24,551 nucleotides of DNA from a virus, in the IMG/VR virus record IMGVR_UViG_3300008117_005923, positions 1 to 24,551 of that record; one strand, 5' to 3'. A program made the position numbers and the translations under genes. This document shows positions 1,729 to 21,071 of this stretch, piece after piece; within the stretch, counting starts at the first letter, position 1, and the number at the start of each line of letters is the position of its first letter. The notes below the pieces were generated by a model. That model did not search any database. It saw nothing but the letters and a program-made list of their open reading frames with translations, and was not told where the DNA came from.

Positions 1729-4397
1729 TGGCTATCCGAATTGGCAATAGGCGACGTGCCCGGTTCCGCAGGGCTACATCTGGGAACCAGGACCTCACTC
1801 TCCTAATCTATAACCTTGTCAAGGAGCAGAACGCGGCACGAAAAGCCGCTCTTTTTGCTGCGTTCGATGCGAACATGGCGTCTCGTTCATACGACGCCGA
1901 TTACGGTGGCCAGCCTGTTGACAGGGCTGCAGTAGAGGCATGGTACGCACAGGCAATTGCAGCGTTCCCTGCAGGGACTACAGAGCGTGATCGACTGCAG
2001 GCCGAGCTGATCGAATTTAGAACAGACGCAATCAATAAAGAGCTTTCTGCCTACGCTGACGCATACAAGAACGGGACATACGCATTTGGTCGAAAGATCA
2101 ACCTAAATGAGTACGTTCGATTCCTTAGGGACGCCGAAGGTCTAGCCCCAGACGCAGAGACTAAGATGAAGTACACAGTCGAAAGATTCATCGTAGAGTT
2201 TAACGATGTCCAGGACGATTTAATCTCAAAGGGCGCAAGCGCATCAACTCTTCTTGGCTTCTATCGAAGACAGCTCAAGAAAGCAGATGAAATGGGGATC
2301 ACCAAGTCATCTGACGCCTACCGCGATATCCGGCGCTACATCCGAGACACCTCAAAGCAGGCTGCTGCAGAGGGGCGAAAGGCCGCGCAGGAGAAGGCCG
2401 GACGGGTAATCTCCAGGCGAATGGCCAAGGTCGCCGACTCTATTAGCTCCGCAATAGAAGCTGCGTTCAATGCCGGCAGACTTGACTCTGCGACAAAGAT
2501 GCAGCTTCAGGAGCGCGATGGCCTGGACGCAGTTAACGCATTCCTAAAGCTTCCAGTTAGCGTTCGAACTTCGATCCTGCAGGCTGGCGCATCCGCAGGG
2601 GTTCAACTTGCCGGAACAGAGCTTACCGGACAGGGGTTCTACGACTATGTCCTTGATACTCGAGACGAGATCAAGACCTACGCTAACGCAGACTGGGTAG
2701 ACCTAGAAGTACGAACTTACCTAGAGGGCGTGCTAAACGATTTTGACAACACCGTCCTTAAGGGAGCTGACCTGCTCACCGACACTGAGAAGGCATCTGA
2801 CAGCGGCCTTAGGGCCAAGCTGGCCAGCACAAGGGGACTTGGAAGCCCGCTTGTCAACGTAGAGGCCTATAAGGCCCACGCCAGGACTCTCGGCTCCACG
2901 TCCACTGGCGATGTGTCAAGCCGAGCCGCAATTGCCCTACTCGAGGGGAAAGTACCAAATCCACGAGATTTCGGAGGCAAGACCGAGCTGTCCCAACTGA
3001 CACAGGAAGAAGCAACCTACCTAACTGAGTCATTTGCGGGAGATCTCTTTATTGACGGAAACCCGGTTGACAACGTGGCGATGGTAATAGACTCTTACAG
3101 GGATATCGGAAGGCTCCAGAGCGGCGGGTACCTGATCATGACTATTGATCCAAACACCGGTAGTCCTTTGATTCAGGTCGACGACAACCTTGTTCCAGGT
3201 GCAAACACATATGTTATGAGTGTGACGATCCCAGGCACCGGGATGCGAGTGTCCTCTGCGGTTCAGCAGGTGCCTCGCAGGCTGACAAACGGATCCAACA
3301 TAAACGCACAGGTAATTATGGAGCTGGATCAGAACAATCAGATAGATTACAAGGTAATCACGCCAGACGGATACAAGGTTGACTTTGACGCATACGAGCT
3401 TTGGCTAAGCAGCACTCAGGGGATCACTCCGGTATTCGATGGAAGCAACTTTGTAATAGATGCTCCGAGCGCAGTTTTGGATGCTTCTGCGATGCGCTCT
3501 GACAGCAGGTTCTCATCCTATGTTCCTAATGAGCCATGGAACGGTCTCGTTGTCGGCTCTAACGGAAATCAGGCTCTGGAAGACATTGCATCGGATATAG
3601 CCTCAAACTACGGATCACTGTTCAGTCTAAATGCTGACGGCACAGTATCGGTAACAGACCCTGTCAGGGCTGCCCAGGAAACCGGCCTAACGCAATCAGG
3701 AATCGATGCGATCATGAAGTCGGAAATCGGCAACAGGATTATAAATTCATCGATACAAACAGAGATTCGAGAGCGCAGTGTCCAGGACTTTAGGATGCGA
3801 GAACGCGCAGAGGCGAACGGTGGCACTGTGCCAACTCAGGCGGAGATGGATCCAGTCCGACTTCAGGCTGCAGCTGCTGCCGGCCAGGCATTTGACGCTG
3901 CAAACCCAATGTTGGCCCAGCTTAGGTCCCCTGCGTCATGGAGGACACGTATGATGGAAGGGGACACCAACCCGTACGGTGGGGCGTGGACATGGAATAG
4001 GGGTCAGGCGGCTACGCCTCCTGCCGGAACTCCCCGACTATCTTCACTCCCTCAAAACCCATTTGTTTCGCAAATGGAAGAAGTTCAGCAACAGGGTGTT
4101 CAGGCAAGAACAAACTGGAGACAGCTACAAACCCTTAACAATCCAGAACAGGCTAACAAGCCTACGGCCCCTGAGGATTACTTCTTCAGGTACAGCACTC
4201 TTAACGTTCAGCCGGGGACCACTCCTGGCACAGGGTTCACCCCCACCAGCCTAGGGAAGGCACCTTCTCTGGTCTCACCAAAGGCCAAAAGCACGTTCAC
4301 GACCGCAGAGGTAAATAAGTCGCTTATTGACTTCAGGGCCGGCGAACGCCAATCACTTGGTATTTCTTCAGACACTCAGACACAGAGAGGGCGCTAA
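1728..4397 (+). CDS. Large uncharacterised virion protein, 889 aa
   Basis: I do not recognise this family. The start ATG overlaps the portal stop by one base and has a GGGAG ribosome site, so it is translationally coupled to a structural gene. The N-terminus is very basic (RIGNRRRARFRRA). Residues about 20-400 look almost wholly helical and Ala/Arg/Glu-rich. About 400-640 look beta-rich (GGYLIMTIDPNTGSPLIQVD and following). About 640-720 are helical again, and the C-terminal 170 residues are rich in Pro, Thr, Gln and Ser and probably disordered. No signal peptide, transmembrane segment or catalytic motif was seen. Its place between portal and scaffold, and its size, suggest an internal virion/ejection protein or a portal-associated protein. 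This is inference only. Confidence 0.55.
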   Translation: MAIRIGNRRRARFRRATSGNQDLTLLIYNLVKEQNAARKAALFAAFDANMASRSYDADYGGQPVDRAAVEAWYAQAIAAFPAGTTERDRLQAELIEFRTDAINKELSAYADAYKNGTYAFGRKINLNEYVRFLRDAEGLAPDAETKMKYTVERFIVEFNDVQDDLISKGASASTLLGFYRRQLKKADEMGITKSSDAYRDIRRYIRDTSKQAAAEGRKAAQEKAGRVISRRMAKVADSISSAIEAAFNAGRLDSATKMQLQERDGLDAVNAFLKLPVSVRTSILQAGASAGVQLAGTELTGQGFYDYVLDTRDEIKTYANADWVDLEVRTYLEGVLNDFDNTVLKGADLLTDTEKASDSGLRAKLASTRGLGSPLVNVEAYKAHARTLGSTSTGDVSSRAAIALLEGKVPNPRDFGGKTELSQLTQEEATYLTESFAGDLFIDGNPVDNVAMVIDSYRDIGRLQSGGYLIMTIDPNTGSPLIQVDDNLVPGANTYVMSVTIPGTGMRVSSAVQQVPRRLTNGSNINAQVIMELDQNNQIDYKVITPDGYKVDFDAYELWLSSTQGITPVFDGSNFVIDAPSAVLDASAMRSDSRFSSYVPNEPWNGLVVGSNGNQALEDIASDIASNYGSLFSLNADGTVSVTDPVRAAQETGLTQSGIDAIMKSEIGNRIINSSIQTEIRERSVQDFRMRERAEANGGTVPTQAEMDPVRLQAAAAAGQAFDAANPMLAQLRSPASWRTRMMEGDTNPYGGAWTWNRGQAATPPAGTPRLSSLPQNPFVSQMEEVQQQGVQARTNWRQLQTLNNPEQANKPTAPEDYFFRYSTLNVQPGTTPGTGFTPTSLGKAPSLVSPKAKSTFTTAEVNKSLIDFRAGERQSLGISSDTQTQRGR

Positions 4398-4400
4398 CTA

Positions 4401-7400
4401 ATGGGATATATCGGCTCTTCTCGGGGAAGCGGACCTAGGTATAATAACCAGTCAATCTCTACGCCTCGATACAAGGCCCCCGAGCCGGACAAGATTGAGT
4501 TCGATCTTGACCCATCCTCACCTGCTGACGCCGTTTTTGGTGGAATAGGCAAGCTATTCTCTGGGGCGGTGTCAGGCGGTATGGGAGTGGCCAACGCACT
4601 TTCCAACGTTCCTGTAATTGGTGACGTAGGGAAAGCAGTTGCTGGAGGACTCGGCGCATTCGGTGAGGTTGGAATCAAGGGGATTGCCCAGGTTAAGGAT
4701 GTGGCCAAGGTTGGTCTGGACATCGTAAGCCTCCCAGGAAAGGCCGTACAGGCCGGCGCTGCCGCGGTTCGCCTGTCCGGTGTTTTCGGTGAGGCGCCGG
4801 CGGACGCGAAGAACATGATGAACAACGGTAAGTCTTTCGCTGATGTTGTTGGATATCTTACGGAAAATAACCGAGGTTTTAGCGACGATGCAATGACCAA
4901 CCTTGGATTCTCTCTTATTACTGATCCGCTGAACTACGTTAACCCAGCAGCTCCAATCCTCTCAGCGCGACACGCCTCTAAGTTTGCAAATATCGAGAAG
5001 GTGGCGATTGCAAAAGCAGACGAGGTCCTTTCAGCCTCAAAGGCCGGACGAGCAGTTGCTCCAGAGTACGCCTCGATGGTCGGAAAGAGGCCAGGTGATC
5101 TTCGGAAAGAAATGCTTCTTAAGCACATGGACAAAGACGACATAGATTTCCTTAACCGTTGGCGCATCGCGGGAAGCTTGTATGACGCCACTTTGGGCAA
5201 GGCCGGTCGGGCAATGAACTCTGTTGTTGATGCTGCCCGCGGACTGGCATCAGTAGGAATGATGCGTTCGTTTGGGGATACACCAAGAAACCTTCTTGAA
5301 GGGCTAGACGAGGCCGGGTTCTCAAAGGAAGCTGCGGCATACGCATCTTCGATTGGCCGGGGCCTTGTACAGTCAACAGTCTTTAGTGTATCTCGTCTTT
5401 TTGCAAGGACAGAGCAAAACCTTGGCCGACTTCGTGCCCAAGCAGTTCTAAACAGGGTTCAGGCTGGCGTAGACAACGCTATTGACGAAGCTACCACGGC
5501 AGAAAGACTTGTTAAAGACGGCCTGGCCTCCAATAATGATACTGCAACTGCCCTTATTGCAAGGGTCAAGGGCATGGACGACCGTGCACGTCGTCAGTTT
5601 GTACGTGAAATTGCAGACGAGTGGACCTCGTCACAGGTAAAGTCAGCAGGAGCCCAGGCTGGAGGAAACTACAGTAGGCTGATGGAGATCGGCGGAATCC
5701 GAATGGCCGACACCATCGATGAGACCACCTCCTTCCTTTCAGAGGGGTCCAGGCGATACGCAACCATGGCAGAGGACGCGCTTGAGAATCTATTTGTGGA
5801 GAAGTCTCGTGCGGCGATGTCGCCAAACGGGCGTAATGCAGTTTCTAGAATGCTTGGCGGAGAGGTCGTAACCACCGGAAACAATGCAGACGCCGCCCTG
5901 AGGGAGATTTTCCGAAAAGGCTCTAAGGGAGACAAGAAAGAGATGGCCAAGCTTGTCCATCTTTCCGAGCTAGCAGCGTATGGGGCCCAGGCTACCAGCG
6001 CAGCTACAGTTCGCAGCCTCCTAAGGTCTGCGGCTGCCGGCAACAAGGCAAACGTAGAGGAAATAATTGGCAAGCCAGTAACACTTGAAGCTTTCAACAA
6101 GCTAAAAGAGCTCCTTGCCACCGACGCAGGCAAAAAGCTGCTTAGAATGAACCTTGTTCGTGCTAATGTTCTAACTGAAGACCGTATTACGGCAATCTTG
6201 AACGTTGCTGATTCTATCCGGTCAGGACAGAAGACAAAGGCAGCACTTCTAAGCGCATTCCCAGACGACATGCGCGAAGGCCTTGCTACGGCCAAAACCC
6301 TAGATGAGCTCGCTCAGGTGGTCACTGCTTACTTCCCAGACATCTCTGTAAACTTGGGCAAGGCAAGCAGCAGCGAATGGTCTAGCCTCAAGAGCATATT
6401 AGAGGACGTTCTTGAAAGCGGAAGCTTCGTTACACTTGCAACCGCAGACGAGGTGGCGGAGCTTCGCAAGGTTCTTGATTCAGTGGCACCAGGCTCAGGC
6501 CGGGCAGTAGAGCAGTCGCTAGCCGCCGGAAGGTACTCGCTTGGGTTCGCCCCAGAGGCCGGCATTCTAAGAAGGCCTGTCAGCCGGGCCACTGATGACG
6601 GGGTCGAGATCTTCGACGAGCCGGTTGCTCCATTCATCGACAACACCGACGACTACATCGAGGGAATGGAGATGGGCGTAGACGCATTCAAGGCATCAGG
6701 CCTGCGTCGCCTAGCGAACAGATGGCTTCGTCCGGTATCCTCCGGAATGGTTCAGCAGAACCAAATGGACAACGCAATAGACGTAGTTCTTGCCGGTGGA
6801 GGATCCATATCTCAGGCAAAGACACTGTTCAATGCAATTAATGAGCTGGCCCTACGAAGGCGAGTAAGCCCACGAGCACTCGTCATGGACGAGAATGCCC
6901 TCCGTCAAGTGATGCAAGATGCCCTTGGAAGCAGGTACGACGACGTCGTGAGGGCGGCCGACAAGAGGCTTAAGGACCCGAGAAAGGTCCTGATGAAGAT
7001 CTACGCCGGAGACCGGGCCACCGTTGGCGTAACCCAGGCATTCACTGGGCGACTTAAGGTTATGCGTCCAAGCCTGGCAATAATCACTGACTTCATCTAT
7101 CCACAGCTCAAGTTCAAGCTAAACCCTCTGTTTTATTTGCAGGAGGCAATCGAGTCTCCATTCTTCAATTACCTACGAGGAATACAGCGACAAATAACTG
7201 GTGGGGAATACGAGGTTGTTCACGGATGGGCTAAGTACCTTCCATTCGCCAAGACACGAGTTGGCCGCACATTGGGCCTGTCCCGAGCCGTTGGCCCGGA
7301 GACCCAGCCTGAGATTGCAGCACTACTTCTTGGCGCTGGAGATTCTGCAATAAAGGCAGACCTAGACATTGCAGAGGCTGTAATTTTCCTACAGGGGTCC

Positions 7401-15148: not shown

Positions 15149-15397
15149 ATGTCGTACGCACAGTTTCAGGCTCTTATGGCCGCAATAAACGACGTCAGGT
15201 CCGAGCTCACGGAGCGCCTGGACCGCATCGAGTTGCGCCTGCGCGACGTGGAGGATTTCCAGACTAAATCGGAGGCCCTGGAGGAGGCTGGACAGGAGCG
15301 CAGTATTGCTCTACGATGGCGGGTGGGGATCGCTATTAGCGCCCTAGGGGCCGTCATGTCCCTCATAGTCCAGGTAATAAAACTGGGGGGAAACTAA
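15149..15397 (+). CDS. Small coiled-coil plus one-TM protein, possible holin
   Basis: An 82-aa protein with an N-terminal amphipathic coiled coil (residues about 3-50, IELRLRDVEDFQTKSEALEE) and one transmembrane helix (about 58-77, GIAISALGAVMSLIVQVIKL) near the C-terminus. This matches XhlA-type lysis proteins and other single-span phage membrane proteins, which sit at the end of the tail cassette. A holin or lysis accessory role is therefore plausible, but no endolysin gene is adjacent. The ATG at 15149 is two bases after the preceding stop; an upstream in-frame start would lie inside the hub gene. The stop overlaps the next start (TAATG). Confidence 0.5.
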   Translation: MSYAQFQALMAAINDVRSELTERLDRIELRLRDVEDFQTKSEALEEAGQERSIALRWRVGIAISALGAVMSLIVQVIKLGGN

Positions 15398-16188
15398 TGT
15401 CGCAAGAAGTACGCATGATCAAATCGCTGAGGGACCAGGGAATGTCCTTCGCAAAGATCGGTGAGCTGATGGGCATAACAAAGGATCAAGCTCAGAAGAA
15501 GTTTAAGAACTATGGGTCAGGGCTTGACGAGGACACAGTAGAACTGTACAATAGTACAGAAGGACTGGACACAAAGAGTATTCGAAAAACTAATAAAAAG
15601 TTAAACAGAACTGTTAATAGTTCAGGAGTTCTGTATACGCCCGGCGGGAATGACTACATTGGAGTCAACGTCGGGTTCTTTGACATTGAAAGCACTTACT
15701 CCAGTTGGCGCCGGATGCTCGTTGGCTCGATTGCCGACCAGTTTGGGAATGTTGAGACGTACACCCTTGACACCCATCCAGGAAAGAATTGGCTGGACGA
15801 CTCAAAGCTGGTCGAGGCGTACGCCCGACGGCTCGAGGAGTTTGACGTTCTCTATTCATGGAACGGCAAGCTGTTCGACATTCCGGTCATCAACTCTCGC
15901 TTGCTGAAGAATGATCTGAAGCCATGCGAGCCGCAGATGCACGTGGACCTGATGTACAAGGCTACGGGTTCTGCCCTGGCAATTGGACGCAAGTCACTCG
16001 AGAATGTGTCAAAGTATTTCGAGGTCAACAACTCAAAGACCCCGCTCGACGTGCGGATCTGGGAGAGGGCTGACCACGGGGACAAGGAAGCATACGAATT
16101 GATTATCGAACACTGCGAAGCAGACGTATTGGTCCTAAGGGACGTGTTCGGGAAGCTGAAGAAGCTCGTTCACGTAATGCACCGATGA
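15397..16188 (+). CDS. HTH plus RNase H-like 3'-5' exonuclease
   Basis: Residues about 5-37 form a helix-turn-helix of the short resolvase/sigma type (MSFAKIGELMGITKDQAQKK). A Lys/Asn/Thr-rich linker (about 45-80) follows, then a DnaQ-like (RNase H-fold) nuclease domain. The catalytic motifs are visible: FFDIEST (D96, E98), SWNGKLFDIP (N156, D161) and H239-x3-D243 with D249 behind it. This resembles predicted 3'-5' exonucleases of the RNase_H_2/YprB group. It could trim DNA ends or process RNA and be guided by its HTH; no polymerase domain is present. RmlD follows with a four-base overlap. The linker is encoded by unusually AT-rich DNA carrying two inverted repeats. Confidence 0.78.
   Translation: MSQEVRMIKSLRDQGMSFAKIGELMGITKDQAQKKFKNYGSGLDEDTVELYNSTEGLDTKSIRKTNKKLNRTVNSSGVLYTPGGNDYIGVNVGFFDIESTYSSWRRMLVGSIADQFGNVETYTLDTHPGKNWLDDSKLVEAYARRLEEFDVLYSWNGKLFDIPVINSRLLKNDLKPCEPQMHVDLMYKATGSALAIGRKSLENVSKYFEVNNSKTPLDVRIWERADHGDKEAYELIIEHCEADVLVLRDVFGKLKKLVHVMHR
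15541..15640 (+). other. AT-rich island with two inverted repeats inside the exonuclease gene
   Basis: By count, 34 of these 100 bases are G or C, against mid-50s around it. It holds CTGTAC-AATA-GTACAG (15544-15559, a 6-bp stem) and ACAGAACT/AGTTCTGT (15605-15634, an 8-bp stem with a 14-base loop). It encodes the interdomain linker, which can explain the composition. A regulator-binding or unwinding site is possible but unproven. Confidence 0.3.
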
Positions 16189-17042
16189 AAGTGGGCGTGG
16201 TCGGCAGCGGCCAGGTCGCCCAACACCTCATCGAGGAAGGGAAGAAGCGGGGTCTTGATATCGTCCTCATCGGACGCGATGGGGGCCCCGCCCCATCCAA
16301 GCGCAAGCACGCACCGGATCGGACATATACCGAGCTTGGTGACTTGCTAGCCCACGTAAAGGATCGCGACGTTGTGATCAACACCGCCGCGTTCCGCGAT
16401 CTCATGGCATGCCAGGCCGACGCAGAAAAGGCCATGGCTATAAACACGCACCTGCCAACGCTCCTGTCTAGCCAGGGGCCGCGGCAGGTTTTTATTTCTA
16501 CTGACTACGTCTTCCGTGGACTTCAGCAAGGACCGCGCCGAGAGACGGAGCAGCCGGATTCCATATGCAACTATGGCGCGAGCAAGATACGCGGTGAGTA
16601 CGGCGTCCTGGATAGAGGCGGCTCTGTGGTGAGGATTTCCTCGCCATGGGGGATATTCCCTAGCCCAGAGCGGGCTCACTTCGTGGACGCAATCGTCCCT
16701 AAGGGTGCGGCTTCCGGTAACCTAGACATGCCGATTGACCAGGTTTTTTCGCCAACATACCTTCCAGATCTTGCCCCAGTGATCCTGGACGTGGCGCTGG
16801 ATGAGAAGGCGGACGGTATATACCATGCGGTCAACAGCGGGTACACTAACTGGGCTGAGTTCACGAGGTTCATCTTCCAGACTCTTGGCGCCAAGGTGAA
16901 AGTGACCGGGTCTGAACGGCTCGATATCCTGCGCCCCAAGTTTGGCAACCTTGGAAACTCCAGACTTCCGAAGCAGAGGACCTGGCCAGAAGCTTTGGTG
17001 GAGTATCTTCGTGGCAGCCAGAAAGCAGAGGACTTGAGATGA
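16185..17042 (+). CDS. rmlD: dTDP-4-dehydrorhamnose reductase-like SDR
   Basis: In the rhamnose pathway RmlD reduces dTDP-4-dehydro-L-rhamnose to dTDP-L-rhamnose with NAD(P)H in the cytoplasm. The 285-aa length is typical. A glycine-rich NAD(P) loop (VGSGQVAQHL, residues 6-15) opens the Rossmann fold. INTAAF, then ADAEKAMAINTHLPTLL, fits the RmlD pattern. STDYVF (105-110) supplies the catalytic Thr region, and NYGASKIRGE carries the Y130-x3-K134 pair. SPTYLPDLA (189-197) is another family hallmark. The gene overlaps its neighbours by four bases on each side (ATGA), forming a tight pair with the following epimerase. The phage has an RmlC elsewhere but no visible RmlA or RmlB, so precursor would come from the host. 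Closely related deoxysugar reductases cannot be excluded. Confidence 0.83.
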   Translation: MKVGVVGSGQVAQHLIEEGKKRGLDIVLIGRDGGPAPSKRKHAPDRTYTELGDLLAHVKDRDVVINTAAFRDLMACQADAEKAMAINTHLPTLLSSQGPRQVFISTDYVFRGLQQGPRRETEQPDSICNYGASKIRGEYGVLDRGGSVVRISSPWGIFPSPERAHFVDAIVPKGAASGNLDMPIDQVFSPTYLPDLAPVILDVALDEKADGIYHAVNSGYTNWAEFTRFIFQTLGAKVKVTGSERLDILRPKFGNLGNSRLPKQRTWPEALVEYLRGSQKAEDLR

Positions 17043-17980
17043 AGATATTGGTCACTGGTAATGTGGGGTACCTAGGTTCAATCCTCACCAGCATGCTGAT
17101 GATTAGAGGGCATACAGTCCACGGTCTAGACAATGGCATGCAGCTTTCGACACTCGTAAATCCGCTCGGGCTATACAGCCCGGAGAAGCAGTACCATTCT
17201 TACGCTGACTTGGACGAGCCGGGCTACGATGTTATCTATCACTTGGCAGCAATATCGAACGATCCAATGGGGGAGGTGGACGACGGACTGACGTACGCCA
17301 CCAACGTCGCGCTCGTGGACTTTATCTGCCAGAAGTATCCAGACGCCAGGCATGTTCTTGCATCGTCGGCGTCGGTGTATGGAGCCATACCGTCAACGGA
17401 CATGGCGGACGAGCTTTATCCGCTAAACCCGCTCACGGCCTACGCTAAGAGCAAGGTAGCGGCCGAAGACGTGGTGAGGCGCCACTGGGACTACTCCATC
17501 CTGCGTATGGGTACCCTGTGGGGTGCGTCGCCAAACTTCAGGCGGGACATCGTAGTAAACGCATTTTTCCATGAAGCGCACTACTCTAACAAGATCACGC
17601 CAAAGGCGCAGGCTAGGCGCCCGATGCTGCACGTAGACGATGCTGCCAGGACCATGATCCTCGCAGGTTACTCCGGCCTATGGACTAACAAGGTGGTCAA
17701 CGTGGCCACCGAGAACACAACGGTGAGCGACATCGCAAAGGCGGTGGCGTTTGCATCCGGCGTCCAGGTCGACTGGTCGGAGTCCAAGGAGCCAGACAAG
17801 CGCGACTACGCTATGGTCACAAAGAGGTACGAGAGCATATCTGCAGAGCTAGGAATGGTGGTCAGGATTGGCGATCCTTCGGCCATGTCGGCGATCAAGT
17901 CCGTGATCTATGACTTCAACAAGCCGTATCCGACTCGGCTAGAGCAGCTCAGAGCTTGGCTTGACAACAAGAAAAGCTAG
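17039..17980 (+). CDS. NAD-dependent nucleotide-sugar epimerase/dehydratase (extended SDR)
   Basis: A 313-aa extended short-chain dehydrogenase. The nucleotide loop is TGNVGYLG (6-13). IYHLAAISNDP (66-76) is the usual strand-4 motif. The catalytic Ser/Tyr/Lys set lies in SSASVYG (109-115) and AYAKSKVAAE (Y135, K139). RPMLHVDDAAR is the substrate-side motif. It lacks the Asp-Glu pair (STDEVYG) of RmlB-type 4,6-dehydratases, so it is more likely an epimerase or reductase than RmlB. The substrate, probably a UDP-, GDP- or dTDP-sugar, cannot be assigned. It is translationally coupled to RmlD. A strong promoter is embedded in its last codons, and a stem-loop follows the stop. Confidence 0.82.
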   Translation: MKILVTGNVGYLGSILTSMLMIRGHTVHGLDNGMQLSTLVNPLGLYSPEKQYHSYADLDEPGYDVIYHLAAISNDPMGEVDDGLTYATNVALVDFICQKYPDARHVLASSASVYGAIPSTDMADELYPLNPLTAYAKSKVAAEDVVRRHWDYSILRMGTLWGASPNFRRDIVVNAFFHEAHYSNKITPKAQARRPMLHVDDAARTMILAGYSGLWTNKVVNVATENTTVSDIAKAVAFASGVQVDWSESKEPDKRDYAMVTKRYESISAELGMVVRIGDPSAMSAIKSVIYDFNKPYPTRLEQLRAWLDNKKS

Positions 17981-18047: not shown

Positions 18048-18071
18048 AACTATTTGAGACTAGGTGAGAAC

Positions 18072-18728
18072 ATGCACGTGAAGGATAAGATTGCAGAGGT
18101 CCTCCGGGCTCGTAGCGAGGTCGGGCGTCCCTCGAAGCGCAAGTGGCGCGGCAGCCTTCTTGGTGGCTGCGTCAGGGCGCACTGGTATTCCGCCAACGGC
18201 GTGCCAGCCTCGGAGCCATTCACCGATGACACACTGCGAATATTCGCAATGGGGAATGCGGTTGGCGACTTCCTGGAGAAGGCGCTGCGGGAAGCTTACG
18301 GAGACAGGATCAGCTTCGAGGTTCCTGTGGTATCGGACGAGTTCGATTTCGCTGGAAACATCGACGCCCTGCTTCAGCTGGAAAGCGGCAAGGTAGTAGT
18401 CCTTGAATTCAAGAGTATTAAGCACCAGGGGTTTATCAGGCTCAGGGAGCCAAAGCCGGAGCATGCCATACAGGTGGCATCATATGCCCGGCTCATTGGA
18501 GCTGCGGACATCGAAGCGTGGGTTGTGTACGTCGACAAAGAAAACTACGATATCCTCGAGTTCCAGGTGGACGTGCCGTCGTGGGCGGACCGAGCCAGGA
18601 GAATCCTAAATGTGCTAGACTACTACGGCGACCGGAAACCGCCACGGTTGCCAGAGGCCGACACACGGAAGTGGCCGTGTGGATGGTGCAATTGGCGGAC
18701 GGAATGTCTAGGAGGTACAAATGGCTGA
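18072..18728 (+). CDS. Cas4-like PD-(D/E)XK nuclease with Fe-S cysteines
   Basis: A RecB/Cas4-family nuclease of 218 aa. The active-site residues are D98 (AGNIDALL), E112-x-K114 (VVLEFKSI) and Q134 (HAIQVASYARLIGA). Four cysteines, C33 (GGCVRAHW) and C203, C206, C212 (CGWCNWRTEC), match the iron-sulfur cluster layout of Cas4 and AddB. Phage members of this family degrade single-stranded ends and are usually unrelated to CRISPR adaptation. The neighbouring ERF gene points to end resection before strand annealing. ATG 18072 is preceded by AGGTGAG; an in-frame TTG at 18054 lacks a good ribosome site. The stop overlaps the ERF start by eight bases. Confidence 0.85.
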   Translation: MHVKDKIAEVLRARSEVGRPSKRKWRGSLLGGCVRAHWYSANGVPASEPFTDDTLRIFAMGNAVGDFLEKALREAYGDRISFEVPVVSDEFDFAGNIDALLQLESGKVVVLEFKSIKHQGFIRLREPKPEHAIQVASYARLIGAADIEAWVVYVDKENYDILEFQVDVPSWADRARRILNVLDYYGDRKPPRLPEADTRKWPCGWCNWRTECLGGTNG

Positions 18729-19242
18729 GGCCAAGAAGAACCTAGCTGCCAAGCTCGTGGACATCATGAAGGCAGTTGGATACATCCGCAAGTCTGGTAC
18801 GAATCAGGCCCAGGGATACAAGTACGTTATGGCCACCGATGTGGCCGACGCAGTTCGCGAGGAGATGGGCAAGAACAACGTATCGATGGTCCCGTCTTCG
18901 GTCGATGTGGTCGGGGAGGGCTTGACGCCTAGCGGCAAGCAGACCCTGCTCACGCTTCGATTTACGTGGACACTAACCGATGGAGACACTGGCGAGACTA
19001 TTACCTTCCAGTCCATTGGTACGGGGTCAGATAGCAGCGATAAGGCTGCTTACAAGGCGGCCACAGGTGCGCTCAAGTACGCACTTCTTACCGCGTTCTT
19101 GATCCCAACAGGCGACGACCCGGAGAACGACAGCAATGATAAGACAATTGCCGATGCAGCTGCTAGAATCTTCGAGGCTAAGCCAGCGGCAAAGACGCCC
19201 GCTAAGACAGCGTCTGCAGACTTCGAAGGGGTGGACTTCTAA
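18721..19242 (+). CDS. erf: ERF-family single-strand annealing protein
   Basis: Promotes annealing of complementary single strands during phage recombination and genome circularisation. The family pattern is plain: LAAKLVDIMKAVGYIRKSGT, then QGYKYVMATDVADAVREEM, and the core SIGTGSDSSDKAAYKAATGA with LKYALLTAFLIPTGDDPE. The 173-aa length is normal. After an Ala/Lys/Pro linker the protein ends in DFEGVDF, an acidic-hydrophobic tip like those by which SSB proteins recruit partners. A perfect AGGAGGT lies five bases before the ATG. It follows a resection nuclease, giving a nuclease-annealer pair. Its stop overlaps the next gene (TAATG). Confidence 0.9.
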   Translation: MAEAKKNLAAKLVDIMKAVGYIRKSGTNQAQGYKYVMATDVADAVREEMGKNNVSMVPSSVDVVGEGLTPSGKQTLLTLRFTWTLTDGDTGETITFQSIGTGSDSSDKAAYKAATGALKYALLTAFLIPTGDDPENDSNDKTIADAAARIFEAKPAAKTPAKTASADFEGVDF

Positions 19243-19634
19243 TGGAGCGACTTGATCTTTGGTTCGGTAAGGAAGCGCCGGTGCGCAAGCGTATTGAGAA
19301 GCTTGGGGTTAACGCCCTGACATTCCGCGGGCAGGCGCAGACGGCAGAGTATGATTGGTGGGTTGCTAACAAAAAGAATGGTGCAGAGCCGACTGTCCGG
19401 TATTTGAATGCATCGGTCACGGTGTTTGACGAGGCTCTAGCTGAGCACGTGGAAAAGATTTACGCGTCGTATCAGAAGAAGCTTGAGTCAGACTCGCGTG
19501 ATCCTCGGCCACATATTCATGTTATCGGTCGATTTAGCGGCGACAAAAAGCTGTCTGATGACGGCAAGCGTTACTTCGTCGACTTCAATGTTGTCGAGGC
19601 CAGCCCGCTAATTTTCGGGACGCTTAGGAAGTGA
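19242..19634 (+). CDS. Hypothetical protein, 130 aa, next to ERF
   Basis: Not recognised. It has a mixed alpha/beta pattern: a helix near the N-terminus, then strands around TVRYLNASVTVFDE, a helix AEHVEKIYASYQKK, and strands HIHVIGRFSG and KRYFVDFNVVEA. The last two could be part of an OB-like barrel. Because recombination operons often pair an annealer with an SSB or a dsDNA-binding helper, a nucleic-acid-binding role is a guess. ATG overlaps the ERF stop (TAATG) and the next start overlaps its stop (GTGA), so it is certainly co-translated with the recombination block. Confidence 0.7.
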   Translation: MERLDLWFGKEAPVRKRIEKLGVNALTFRGQAQTAEYDWWVANKKNGAEPTVRYLNASVTVFDEALAEHVEKIYASYQKKLESDSRDPRPHIHVIGRFSGDKKLSDDGKRYFVDFNVVEASPLIFGTLRK

Positions 19635-19840
19635 AGCCAGTATTCAGCGGTGCCAGGGCAGTAATCGAGGCGTCTCGATGCGCCCTGGACCGCGAATACT
19701 CCAAGCGCGATCACGCGGTCTGCGCTTGGTGCCAGTACGCACCTGGCGATTTGATCAAGGAGGTCTGGTCTTGGATGAAAGATCCTGCTAACGGGCAGGA
19801 GATTGCCAAGGAAGACAGGGGAGAGGTGGAGCTCTGGTAG
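19631..19840 (+). CDS. Small hypothetical protein with CxxC, 69 aa
   Basis: GTG start overlapping the previous stop by four bases, with TAGGA just upstream. C17, H28, C31 and C34 (HAVCAWCQYAPGD) could bind one zinc ion; the remainder is acidic and helical. No family recognised. Its placement in an unbroken chain of overlapping genes supports it as real. Confidence 0.6.
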   Translation: MKPVFSGARAVIEASRCALDREYSKRDHAVCAWCQYAPGDLIKEVWSWMKDPANGQEIAKEDRGEVELW

Positions 19841-19842
19841 GC

Positions 19843-20250
19843 ATGCTGCTCGCAGCTGCGATTGCAGTTTGCCTACCGACTCCGCAAGATACGAATAAAG
19901 GTTGGGCTTCTTGGTACGCCTCTCCGCTAAAGTCTAGTCACAATTACAATAATCCATGGTATACGAGGGGCAAGAAAAAGGTCATGAACTTTGCTGCGGT
20001 GAGATCATTCAAGTGGAATGACTCGCCATACTATGTTCAGGTCTGCTCTGTCAAGACTGGCAAGTGCGCTATTGCGAAGGTAGTCGATCACTGCGAAGGC
20101 TGCACCGGGAAGAGGCTCATTGACTTGAGCCCAATCTTGTTCGAAGCCATTGGCATACCTTTGCACCATGGCGTGGCAAAAATTACTCTTAGGAGGTTGT
20201 ATGGCTATCAAGGGCCCTTTAACTGCAGCGCAGCGTCGAGGCAGAAATAA
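19843..20250 (+). CDS. Exported double-psi beta-barrel protein (RlpA/expansin-like)
   Basis: A 135-aa protein that begins with a short hydrophobic segment (MLLAAAIAVCLP) usable as an export signal but lacking the usual basic start. The rest matches the double-psi beta-barrel of RlpA-like and expansin-like proteins: GWASWYAS (20-27), a basic middle, CAIAKVVDHCEGC with D82, and RLIDLSPILFEAIGIPLHHG (91-110), where IDLS is the family hallmark. Cysteines C68, C75, C84 and C87 may form disulfides outside the cell. Such domains bind or cleave peptidoglycan, so a lysis or wall-remodelling role is plausible, but it sits inside the recombination block rather than beside a holin. No in-frame start exists between the upstream stop at 19789 and this ATG. 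Its 3' end overlaps the next gene by 50 bases. Confidence 0.72.
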   Translation: MLLAAAIAVCLPTPQDTNKGWASWYASPLKSSHNYNNPWYTRGKKKVMNFAAVRSFKWNDSPYYVQVCSVKTGKCAIAKVVDHCEGCTGKRLIDLSPILFEAIGIPLHHGVAKITLRRLYGYQGPFNCSAASRQK

Positions 20251-20575
20251 TAGGAAAAGGGGTAATGCAATTGAGCTTTGGGCGTGCAAGGAACTTGGAA
20301 TTTCTCGTACAGGAATGTTTGGAGGAAAAACTGATGGCGGAAAACATGATGAGTGGCTGGTTATACAGGTCAAGAGCGGCCCGTCGAACTTCTCGGAAAA
20401 AGTCTGGAAGCTTCTTGAGTCGCTTAATCCGACGGCTTCGCAGCTCAAAGCGGTTGTCACGGTCAGCGCGGACGGCCCTGGGGCGAAGAGGCGGGCGTAC
20501 GTCACGCTAGAAATGTCTGACTTTATTGATTGGTTTGGAGGTAAGAATGTACAGAAAACCGACGATACTGAATAA
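20201..20575 (+). CDS. Holliday-junction-resolvase-like PD-(D/E)XK nuclease
   Basis: A 124-aa protein like archaeal Hjc and phage resolvases. A basic N-terminus is followed by KRGNAIELWACKELGI (E25), then GGKHDEWLVIQVKSG, in which D50 and the Q56-V-K58 strand supply the metal and catalytic positions. The usual motif is E-x-K; Gln replaces Glu here, a variant seen in some PD-(D/E)XK families. A resolvase would debranch recombination intermediates before packaging, which fits ERF and the Cas4-like nuclease nearby. AGGAGG at 20191-20196 fixes the ATG at 20201; a longer in-frame version from 20150 has no comparable site. It overlaps the beta-barrel gene by 50 bases in another frame; both read convincingly. 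Confidence 0.72.
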   Translation: MAIKGPLTAAQRRGRNNRKRGNAIELWACKELGISRTGMFGGKTDGGKHDEWLVIQVKSGPSNFSEKVWKLLESLNPTASQLKAVVTVSADGPGAKRRAYVTLEMSDFIDWFGGKNVQKTDDTE

Positions 20576-21071
20576 GGGTATCTTCATGGATGACCGAGGG
20601 TTCTTCCAGGAGGTCACGAAAGAGGGCGACGACATCATGAACCTGCTAGGAGTGATCCGGCAGATCAATATGAGCAAGAGCAAGAAGGGTACGCTTCGTG
20701 GCATACACGCCCAGACCGGCATGGCCAAGGCAATGTGGGTGCCGTACGGAGTTGCCCAGATCGTGGCTGTCAACCTGGACATTACGTCATCTGAGTTTGG
20801 CAGCGTCATATCGCACCACATGTCCGCAGGGGACGGCAAGGTATTCTACGCGCCTGACAATTGGGGCCGCGGATTCCTGGCCCTCGAGGAGGGTACGGTT
20901 GTGGCCTATGCCTGCTCAGATGTCTACCGGCCGAACTTTGAGTTCGGCATAAACCCGATTGACTGCGGCATAAACTGGGATCTCGAGCGCATCGACGGCG
21001 ATCCGCTCTTGAGCCCTAAGGACAAGGAGGCCAGGTCGATCAAGGACCTGTTGAAGACGAATGGTTCCTAA
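20547..21071 (+). CDS. rmlC: dTDP-4-dehydrorhamnose 3,5-epimerase-like (RmlC)
   Basis: RmlC converts dTDP-4-keto-6-deoxyglucose to the L-rhamnose precursor, the step before RmlD. The 174-aa cupin has the family blocks: DDRGFFQEV (15-23), KKGTLRGIHAQ (47-57) with catalytic His54, then WGRGFLALEEG (106-116). YACSDVYRPNFEFGINPIDC follows, carrying Y127 and D139, and LLSPKDKEA comes near the end. Canonical RmlC reads GLHYQ where this has GIHAQ. The start is fixed by GGAGG at 20537-20541; an in-frame TTG at 20526 is worse placed. It is about 3.5 kb from rmlD and embedded in recombination genes. Related enzymes making other 3,5-epimerised sugars remain possible. Confidence 0.85.
   Translation: MYRKPTILNKGIFMDDRGFFQEVTKEGDDIMNLLGVIRQINMSKSKKGTLRGIHAQTGMAKAMWVPYGVAQIVAVNLDITSSEFGSVISHHMSAGDGKVFYAPDNWGRGFLALEEGTVVAYACSDVYRPNFEFGINPIDCGINWDLERIDGDPLLSPKDKEARSIKDLLKTNGS

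Follow-up and report, generated by a model that had tools for sequence, protein, structure and literature searches.

Genomic context and start of the DPBB gene

The window analyzed here, i.e., the whole 24,551-base stretch of the IMG/VR record, carries on its plus strand an ORF at positions 19843–20250, whose 135-aa product has a hydrophobic N-terminus followed by a core of the double-psi beta-barrel (DPBB) type. A preliminary description of this DNA had named the ORF, its export-like N-terminus, Asp82 and the motifs ASWY and IDLS; all of these were found, the two motifs at residues 22–25 and 93–96, respectively. A reverse-strand ORF (20005–20505) overlaps the DPBB ORF, and codon statistics favor the plus frame. 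The first standard start codon is the ATG at 19843; judged from the sequence, the true start is probably the CTG at 19834. With this start, the DPBB gene spans 19834–20250 (+) and comprises a hydrophobic export-type leader (19834–19887, +, end approximate), a single DPBB domain (19888–20205, +, limits approximate, placed by AlphaFold and fold searches) and a short tail. Members of the window's subfamily retain a [CT]TG codon at 19834, preceded at a distance of 5 nt by GAGGTG or a comparable stretch rich in purines. One relative, L010, has no ATG, GTG or TTG ahead of the mature DPBB domain. In the window, the stop (TGG TAG) of a 69-aa ORF directly upstream (19631–19840, +) overlaps the putative CTG start region, and in a second subfamily the stop codon of the preceding nuclease gene and the DPBB start overlap, the latter being ATG, CTG, GTG or ATA at the same place. 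This arrangement suggests non-AUG, translationally coupled initiation of the DPBB gene. Apparently non-AUG starts at the conserved place overlapping the upstream gene end were seen in the window (19834) and in L010, L017, L018, L026, L031 and L033; the codon is CTG, but ATA in L031 and L033.

Recombination-type genes lie on both sides of the DPBB gene, as had been claimed. Upstream are a PD-(D/E)XK/Cas4-like exonuclease gene (18054–18728, +, recognized by Pfam and PHROGs) and the gene of an Erf-type single-strand annealing protein (18721–19242, +; PF04404, 54.6 bits; phrog_155). Downstream, the gene of a resolvase-like PD-(D/E)XK nuclease (20201–20575, +) shares its first 50 bases with the 3′ end of the DPBB gene, of which it is the conserved partner. 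Sugar-nucleotide genes (RmlD-like, epimerase and RmlC-like, the latter with PF00908 at 104.7 bits) are interspersed with the recombination genes at 16185–17980 and 20547–21071, and relatives retain these genes at lower identity. The region 15397–16188 encodes an RNase H fold protein resembling PolB-type exonucleases (PF13482), the N-terminus of which weakly matches a helix-turn-helix.

Relatives were collected by scanning viral contigs with successive DPBB queries, which gave 4, 27, 9 and 44 loci in overlapping sets; two scans of genome contigs found no DPBB relative. Using tblastn, no match was obtained in a phage collection for the window DPBB, for the subfamily-2 DPBB or its nuclease, or for the C39-like peptidase of relatives, one L039 protein and an L035 protein read as terminase. 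The L064 DPBB gave six weak matches in Agrobacterium/Rhizobium phages (E 0.2). The capsid protein matched 62 records, but every one of them at less than 60% identity and with mixed hosts, so that no host was called. An actinobacterial host, as WhiB would indicate, gained no support, PF02467 being detected in 0 of 46 contigs, which as fragments do not prove its absence. The search for tRNAs returned nothing but tRNA-Ile (anticodon TAT), located in three contigs of the window's subfamily (L034 744–819, L038 8786–8861 and L045 16446–16521).

Fold and family membership

The proposed DPBB fold and its kinship to RlpA and expansins were supported by Pfam, profile search, AlphaFold, Foldseek and VIA-align. 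The window protein matches Pfam PF03330 (DPBB_1) with an E-value of 3.6e-6 and 27.6 bits, which is just below the gathering cut-off of 28.8 bits, and the same family is matched by all 26 aligned relatives at E ≤ 0.01 (best 4.9e-8). Besides DPBB_1, Pfam at E ≤ 1 gave the 135 aa of the window protein just a chance-level match to Neurexophilin and no SPOR domain. A sequence profile of the relatives retrieves expansins, loosenin, the papain inhibitor and PA4485 in the PDB. An earlier AlphaFold run with 26 rows and the leader was poor (pLDDT 57); the model used instead was computed from an alignment of 59 DPBB rows and reached a pLDDT of 81.4 and a pTM of 0.74. It ends with the barrel and a 10-residue disordered tail, i.e., no expansin D2 is present.

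A comparison of the predicted structure with solved DPBBs, which the preliminary description had proposed, showed that the model matches PA4485, expansins, kiwellins and loosenin; in its build, the protein resembles wall-loosening proteins of both bacteria and plants. Foldseek listed 21 PDB matches at E ≤ 0.001, with PA4485 (6.8e-7), kiwellins, loosenin (1.2e-5) and expansins as the best. The Z scores of VIA-align were 10–12 for PA4485, expansins, kiwellin and loosenin and 7–8 for remoter barrels, and PA4485 was superposed on the model over 90 residues at 2.4 Å. Curated family models remain far from their cut-offs on the DPBB: TIGR00413 (RlpA) scores 14.1 bits (cut-off 82.15) and NF041144 (EXLX1) 17.2 bits (cut-off 100). 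The closest viral structures are uncultured Caudovirales proteins, several of them named RlpA-like, with 26–37% identity for the top five. Thus, the window protein is a divergent member of the phage RlpA-like proteins already on record. In PHROGs, six of the 59 DPBBs, the window protein not among them, match phrog_7930, a ‘lipoprotein precursor’. A lipoprotein reading was rejected: Cys10 is preceded by I-A-V, which we take not to be a lipobox, and the position is His in subfamily 2.

Leader and conserved residues

Residues were compared in 59 non-redundant DPBBs, the relatives being 24–80% identical to the window. An 11-residue hydrophobic stretch precedes the domain in 59/59 DPBB relatives, compared to one of 32 nucleases scored alike, which bears out the predicted export-type leader. 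In ORF numbering, Ala52, Asp82, Cys84, Cys87, Asp94, Pro97 and Gly110 are invariant. The emphasis placed earlier on Asp82 (in VVDHC, codon 20086–20088, +) was thus correct in that the residue is present and invariant in 59/59, but the functional Asp of expansins aligns with Asp94 of IDLSP (codon 20122–20124, +), which is likewise invariant in 59/59. In the profile alignment, Asp94 falls on Asp78 of the Clavibacter michiganensis expansin, the residue mutated in 4js7 according to the entry title. According to a review, the functional Asp82 of EXLX1 corresponds to the catalytic Asp in GH45 and in MltA (PMC5072189). By way of the expansin alignment and this correspondence with MltA, the catalytic-type Asp of DPBB lytic transglycosylases is present as Asp94. 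EXLX1 Asp82 and window Asp82 share their number by coincidence, the latter being the other Asp of the pair. Directly after SWY, the window has Ala, while 29 of the 59 DPBBs have Asp; this position may correspond to that of the second catalytic Asp of GH45 on the first strand.

Four cysteines had been claimed for the protein. There are six in all (10, 68, 75, 84, 87 and 128), four of which lie in the core; just Cys84 and Cys87 are invariant in 59/59 DPBBs, while Cys68 and Cys75, although retained by all 26 sequences aligned first, are lost among the remotest members.

A conserved pair of DPBB and nuclease genes

For the resolvase-like nuclease, no Pfam family above cut-off and no convincing PDB match were found. 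All 15 aligned nucleases match phrog_244 (RusA-like resolvase) weakly, with a best value of 2e-4 and 0.041 for the window. A recA match to the nuclease profile was discarded, as it was built of repeated 5.8-bit pieces. The window nuclease shares 43% identity (102 columns, E 1e-24) with the gene that immediately precedes the DPBB gene in the second subfamily.

The nuclease is present in 30 of 31 DPBB loci including the window (exception L028) and in 14 of 15 further DPBB loci (exception L065), though about 1.2 kb away in L055–L057. In the opposite direction, viral contigs were scanned by the nuclease alone. A first scan was seeded with nucleases adjoining DPBBs; of the loci newly numbered from the best 80 of 205 stretches, some of them on contigs already known, 69/74 contained a DPBB. 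A second scan used four seeds, three without a detected DPBB (one of these at a contig end) and one with the DPBB approximately 4 kb off on the other strand. Here, a DPBB was found in 57 of the 61 loci newly numbered from the best 80 of 253 stretches: 52 on the same strand within 400 nt and five at 406–495 nt, leaving four without. Since the loci overlap (same contig, different numbers), locus counts are not independent, and counts of clusters are safer. Clustering at 90% nuclease identity, with both scans keeping their best 80 stretches (of 205 and of 253), showed a DPBB in 28 of 34 clusters, of which 17 have it on the same strand within 400 nt, six within 2 kb and five farther away or on the other strand. 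Six clusters lack a DPBB; in one of them, L102, the sequence stops 81 bases past the nuclease gene. When gene families were counted up to 5 kb from 32 representative nucleases, the DPBB ranked first among true neighbors (28/32, 18 of them within 200 nt), followed by a family with 19/32. A family present in 29/32 loci was not counted as a neighbor, since it is an antisense shadow of the nuclease. The DPBB gene comes first in the window's subfamily and the nuclease gene first in the others, which means that the pair survives rearrangement. The placement of the DPBB among recombination genes is therefore conserved far beyond the phage of the window.

Several loci depart from the common arrangement. 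In L088, L090, L093–L096, L098 and L110, the DPBB and nuclease genes are on opposite strands with approximately 4 kb between them; in L093, an RmlC-like gene adjoins the nuclease. L139 has two nuclease-DPBB pairs on opposite strands (150–1198 and 5366–6300). Reading the DPBB-less loci L087, L092 and L143 by eye, no obvious substitute gene was found. In L150, where the DPBB is missing as well, a different membrane-anchored, extracellular-looking protein is encoded about 0.5 kb downstream of the nuclease (5517–6185).

A pairing this strong and specific could mean that the DPBB is not exported but stays in the cytoplasm or bound to the membrane and takes part in DNA processing together with the nuclease, and some DPBB members do look membrane-anchored with a linker when inspected by eye. 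We consider this extremely improbable, as the hydrophobic leader is found throughout the family, the Cys pair is invariant, and most of the solved structures nearest to the DPBB model are presumably extracellular proteins.

Allele exchange in the DPBB core

The contig L003 is 98–100% identical to the window in the genes adjoining the DPBB gene. However, 81 of the 115 differences between the two in the first aligned block fall between 19926 and 20221 (+), inside the DPBB gene. In this tract, identity is 96.6% with L009 but about 78% with the window; in the near-identical flanks, the relation is reversed. Thus, the DPBB core was swapped for the allele of a relative. The exchange within the gene covers 296 bases (19926–20221 in the window, 5764–6059 in L003), is limited to the DPBB core and concerns phages from two samples. 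There is a small chance that a chimeric assembly produced the tract, although the tract differs from L009 too. Comparing the two DPBB alleles, 39 synonymous and 24 non-synonymous codon changes were counted (dN 0.106, dS 0.96), so the DPBB frame is coding and constrained by purifying selection. A second patch of differences between the window and L003 lies in the nuclease gene at 18054–18728.

Such an exchange between otherwise near-identical phages would fit a role of the exported DPBB in superinfection exclusion, altering or masking the wall against competing phages, with help in lysis secondary or absent. The DPBB of subfamily 1 (66–83% identical to the window) also diverges more than Erf (97% in G005), and the gene is positioned away from lysis genes. 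On the other hand, allele swaps occur in neutral genes too, another patch of differences lies in the 18054–18728 nuclease, and the low dN relative to dS does not indicate diversifying selection. We regard superinfection exclusion as unlikely, albeit a contender to be taken seriously.

Lysis genes elsewhere in the relatives

A conventional endolysin was sought, since the preliminary description had suggested that the DPBB protein might stand in for a normal lysin. In L004, a PF13529 peptidase (24.5 bits, cut-off 24) adjoins a PF09682 holin (55.3 bits). L035, a member of the window's subfamily, encodes a peptidase homologous to that of L004 (31% identity, E 3e-17), which adjoins a small protein read as membrane-embedded and with no Pfam match. 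A profile built from these two C39-like peptidases matches 27/46 contigs; the 19 contigs showing none are all possible fragments. Pfam by itself found PF13529 in seven and PF09682 in nine of the 46 contigs. No C39-like peptidase is present in the window, a 24,551-base fragment, and by the gene order of G005 the peptidase region lies beyond its left end. The idea of a stand-in is thus not supported. A single in-frame stop interrupts the reading frame of the C39-like peptidase in both G063 (3924–4490) and G053 (194–772), be it a frameshift, an error or recoding.

These results bear on whether the DPBB protein could be a lytic transglycosylase of the RlpA type and, as such, the principal enzyme degrading the wall, a role put forward for ORF83 of phage PA-SR01 (PMC7431792). 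The protein does belong to the RlpA/MltA clan and has a conserved catalytic-type Asp, and no lysin was found in the window. However, relatives possess the C39-like peptidase, with the adjoining PF09682 holin in L004, and the window is a fragment without that region, which makes a primary lysin role unlikely. Further, the DPBB gene is outside any lysis cassette, its neighbors being recombination and sugar genes with peptidase and holin elsewhere in relatives, and the score of TIGR00413 is far below its cut-off. We therefore assign this possibility a very low probability.

The co-occurrence of a C39-like peptidase in 27/46 contigs could also be taken to mean that the DPBB inhibits a cysteine peptidase, perhaps the phage's own C39-like lysin until late in infection, or peptidases of hosts or rivals. 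The Streptomyces papain inhibitor (SPI, 5ntb), itself a small DPBB, is among the best profile matches, although weak in sequence (E 2e-4), and gives a Z score of 10.2. Of three DPBBs scanned with NF041659 (Papain_Inhib), two match weakly (L004 18.2 and L134 18.6 bits). These scores are far under the cut-off of 150 bits, though, and the window protein has no match; in the structure comparison, expansins and kiwellins score as well as the papain inhibitor, and the co-occurrence may merely reflect shared phage ancestry. An inhibitor function appears quite improbable to us, if slightly less so than a primary lysin.

A possible accessory role in wall loosening

We tentatively favor, at nearly even chances, an exported expansin/RlpA-like accessory wall-loosening factor, which is made with DNA-processing genes and aids rather than replaces the lysis cassette. 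This proposal builds on the fold, the leader, the invariant Asp pair, the pairing with the nuclease, the C39-like peptidase in relatives and the precedents of EXLX1 and T7. The leader would export a small protein, consisting of one DPBB of the expansin/loosenin/RlpA clan, to the host envelope. There, by analogy with characterized members of the clan, the domain may bind or cleave peptidoglycan; it would contact glycan strands via Asp82 and Asp94 and weaken the wall, and a separate C39-like peptidase together with a holin, both encoded elsewhere in the genome, would complete lysis. As the DPBB would be produced alongside the DNA-processing proteins, with its translation probably coupled to that of the neighboring genes, wall preparation would begin while genomes are being resolved for packaging. 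Export, the wall as target, loosening activity, timing and the contribution to lysis are what we infer here. Several observations speak against an accessory wall-loosening role: a second glycan-binding domain is absent (no D2, no SPOR), the curated RlpA and EXLX1 models score far below their cut-offs, the residue after SWY is Ala, the allele swap would equally fit an arms race, and 19/46 contigs are without the C39-like peptidase.

A broader idea is that the nuclease and the exported DPBB form one module across a large assemblage of uncultured phages, coupling completed DNA processing to action on the host wall, e.g., as a wall-priming timer or as a peptidase inhibitor that holds back the C39-like lysin for as long as resolution and packaging of the genomes are under way. 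It is speculative, and we would give it only a small chance, somewhat below that of superinfection exclusion and above that of simple peptidase inhibition.

Comparison with known systems

Small phage DPBBs are also found among the uncultured Caudovirales RlpA-like proteins in BFVD/UniProt (e.g., A0A6J7X0K2 and A0A6J5MWI2; TM-score (query) 0.61–0.73 for the top five), the names of which are automatic. Phage RlpA-like proteins have so far been reported phage by phage: OLIVR5 gp134 is one by annotation, and MA9V-1 ORF115 is another (PMC10537231). A DPBB core is likewise present in a chitosanase from a soil virus (PMC9485262). One such protein was proposed as a lysin, namely the above-mentioned ORF83 of the Pseudanabaena cyanophage PA-SR01, which belongs to the RlpA family; it is put forward as the main lysis gene, no lysozyme having been found, and the RuvC resolvase ORF77 lies six ORFs away (PMC7431792). 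PA-SR01 therefore resembles the window in having an RlpA-type gene, but in contrast to it, the relatives of the window have a C39-like peptidase.

Among bacterial proteins, Pseudomonas aeruginosa RlpA is an exported wall DPBB with a catalytic Asp, like the window protein, but has a SPOR domain, which the window protein lacks (PMC9712689). The bacterial expansin EXLX1 has its functional Asp at the IDLSP-type position, as in the window (Z 10.1 for 3d30); it is a two-domain protein, however, whereas the window protein is a DPBB alone. EXLX1 of Bacillus subtilis binds peptidoglycan, and its loss lowers autolysis (PMC5072189), which makes it a fitting model.

A literature search, largely short of full texts, returned no description of the DPBB-nuclease pairing, its breadth, the non-AUG start or the coexisting C39-like peptidase, and no phage paper combining a Holliday junction resolvase with RlpA. 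In the window and its relatives, a small, apparently secreted DPBB accompanies a single nuclease family through many divergent uncultured phages, with a C39-like peptidase encoded elsewhere. The pairing hints that DNA processing and the host cell wall may be connected in a way not described so far. A parallel, for which no homology is claimed, exists in phage T7, where the gene 3 endonuclease is directly followed by the gene 3.5 lysozyme with a one-base overlap. The product of T7 gene 3 resolves junctions; that of gene 3.5 is an amidase without a leader and is annotated as also inhibiting T7 RNA polymerase. Whether the DPBB helps or restrains lysis, and why it is kept beside a resolvase-like gene, as with T7 genes 3 and 3.5, is a testable question, and the answer would also explain what this widespread, unnamed pair of genes does.
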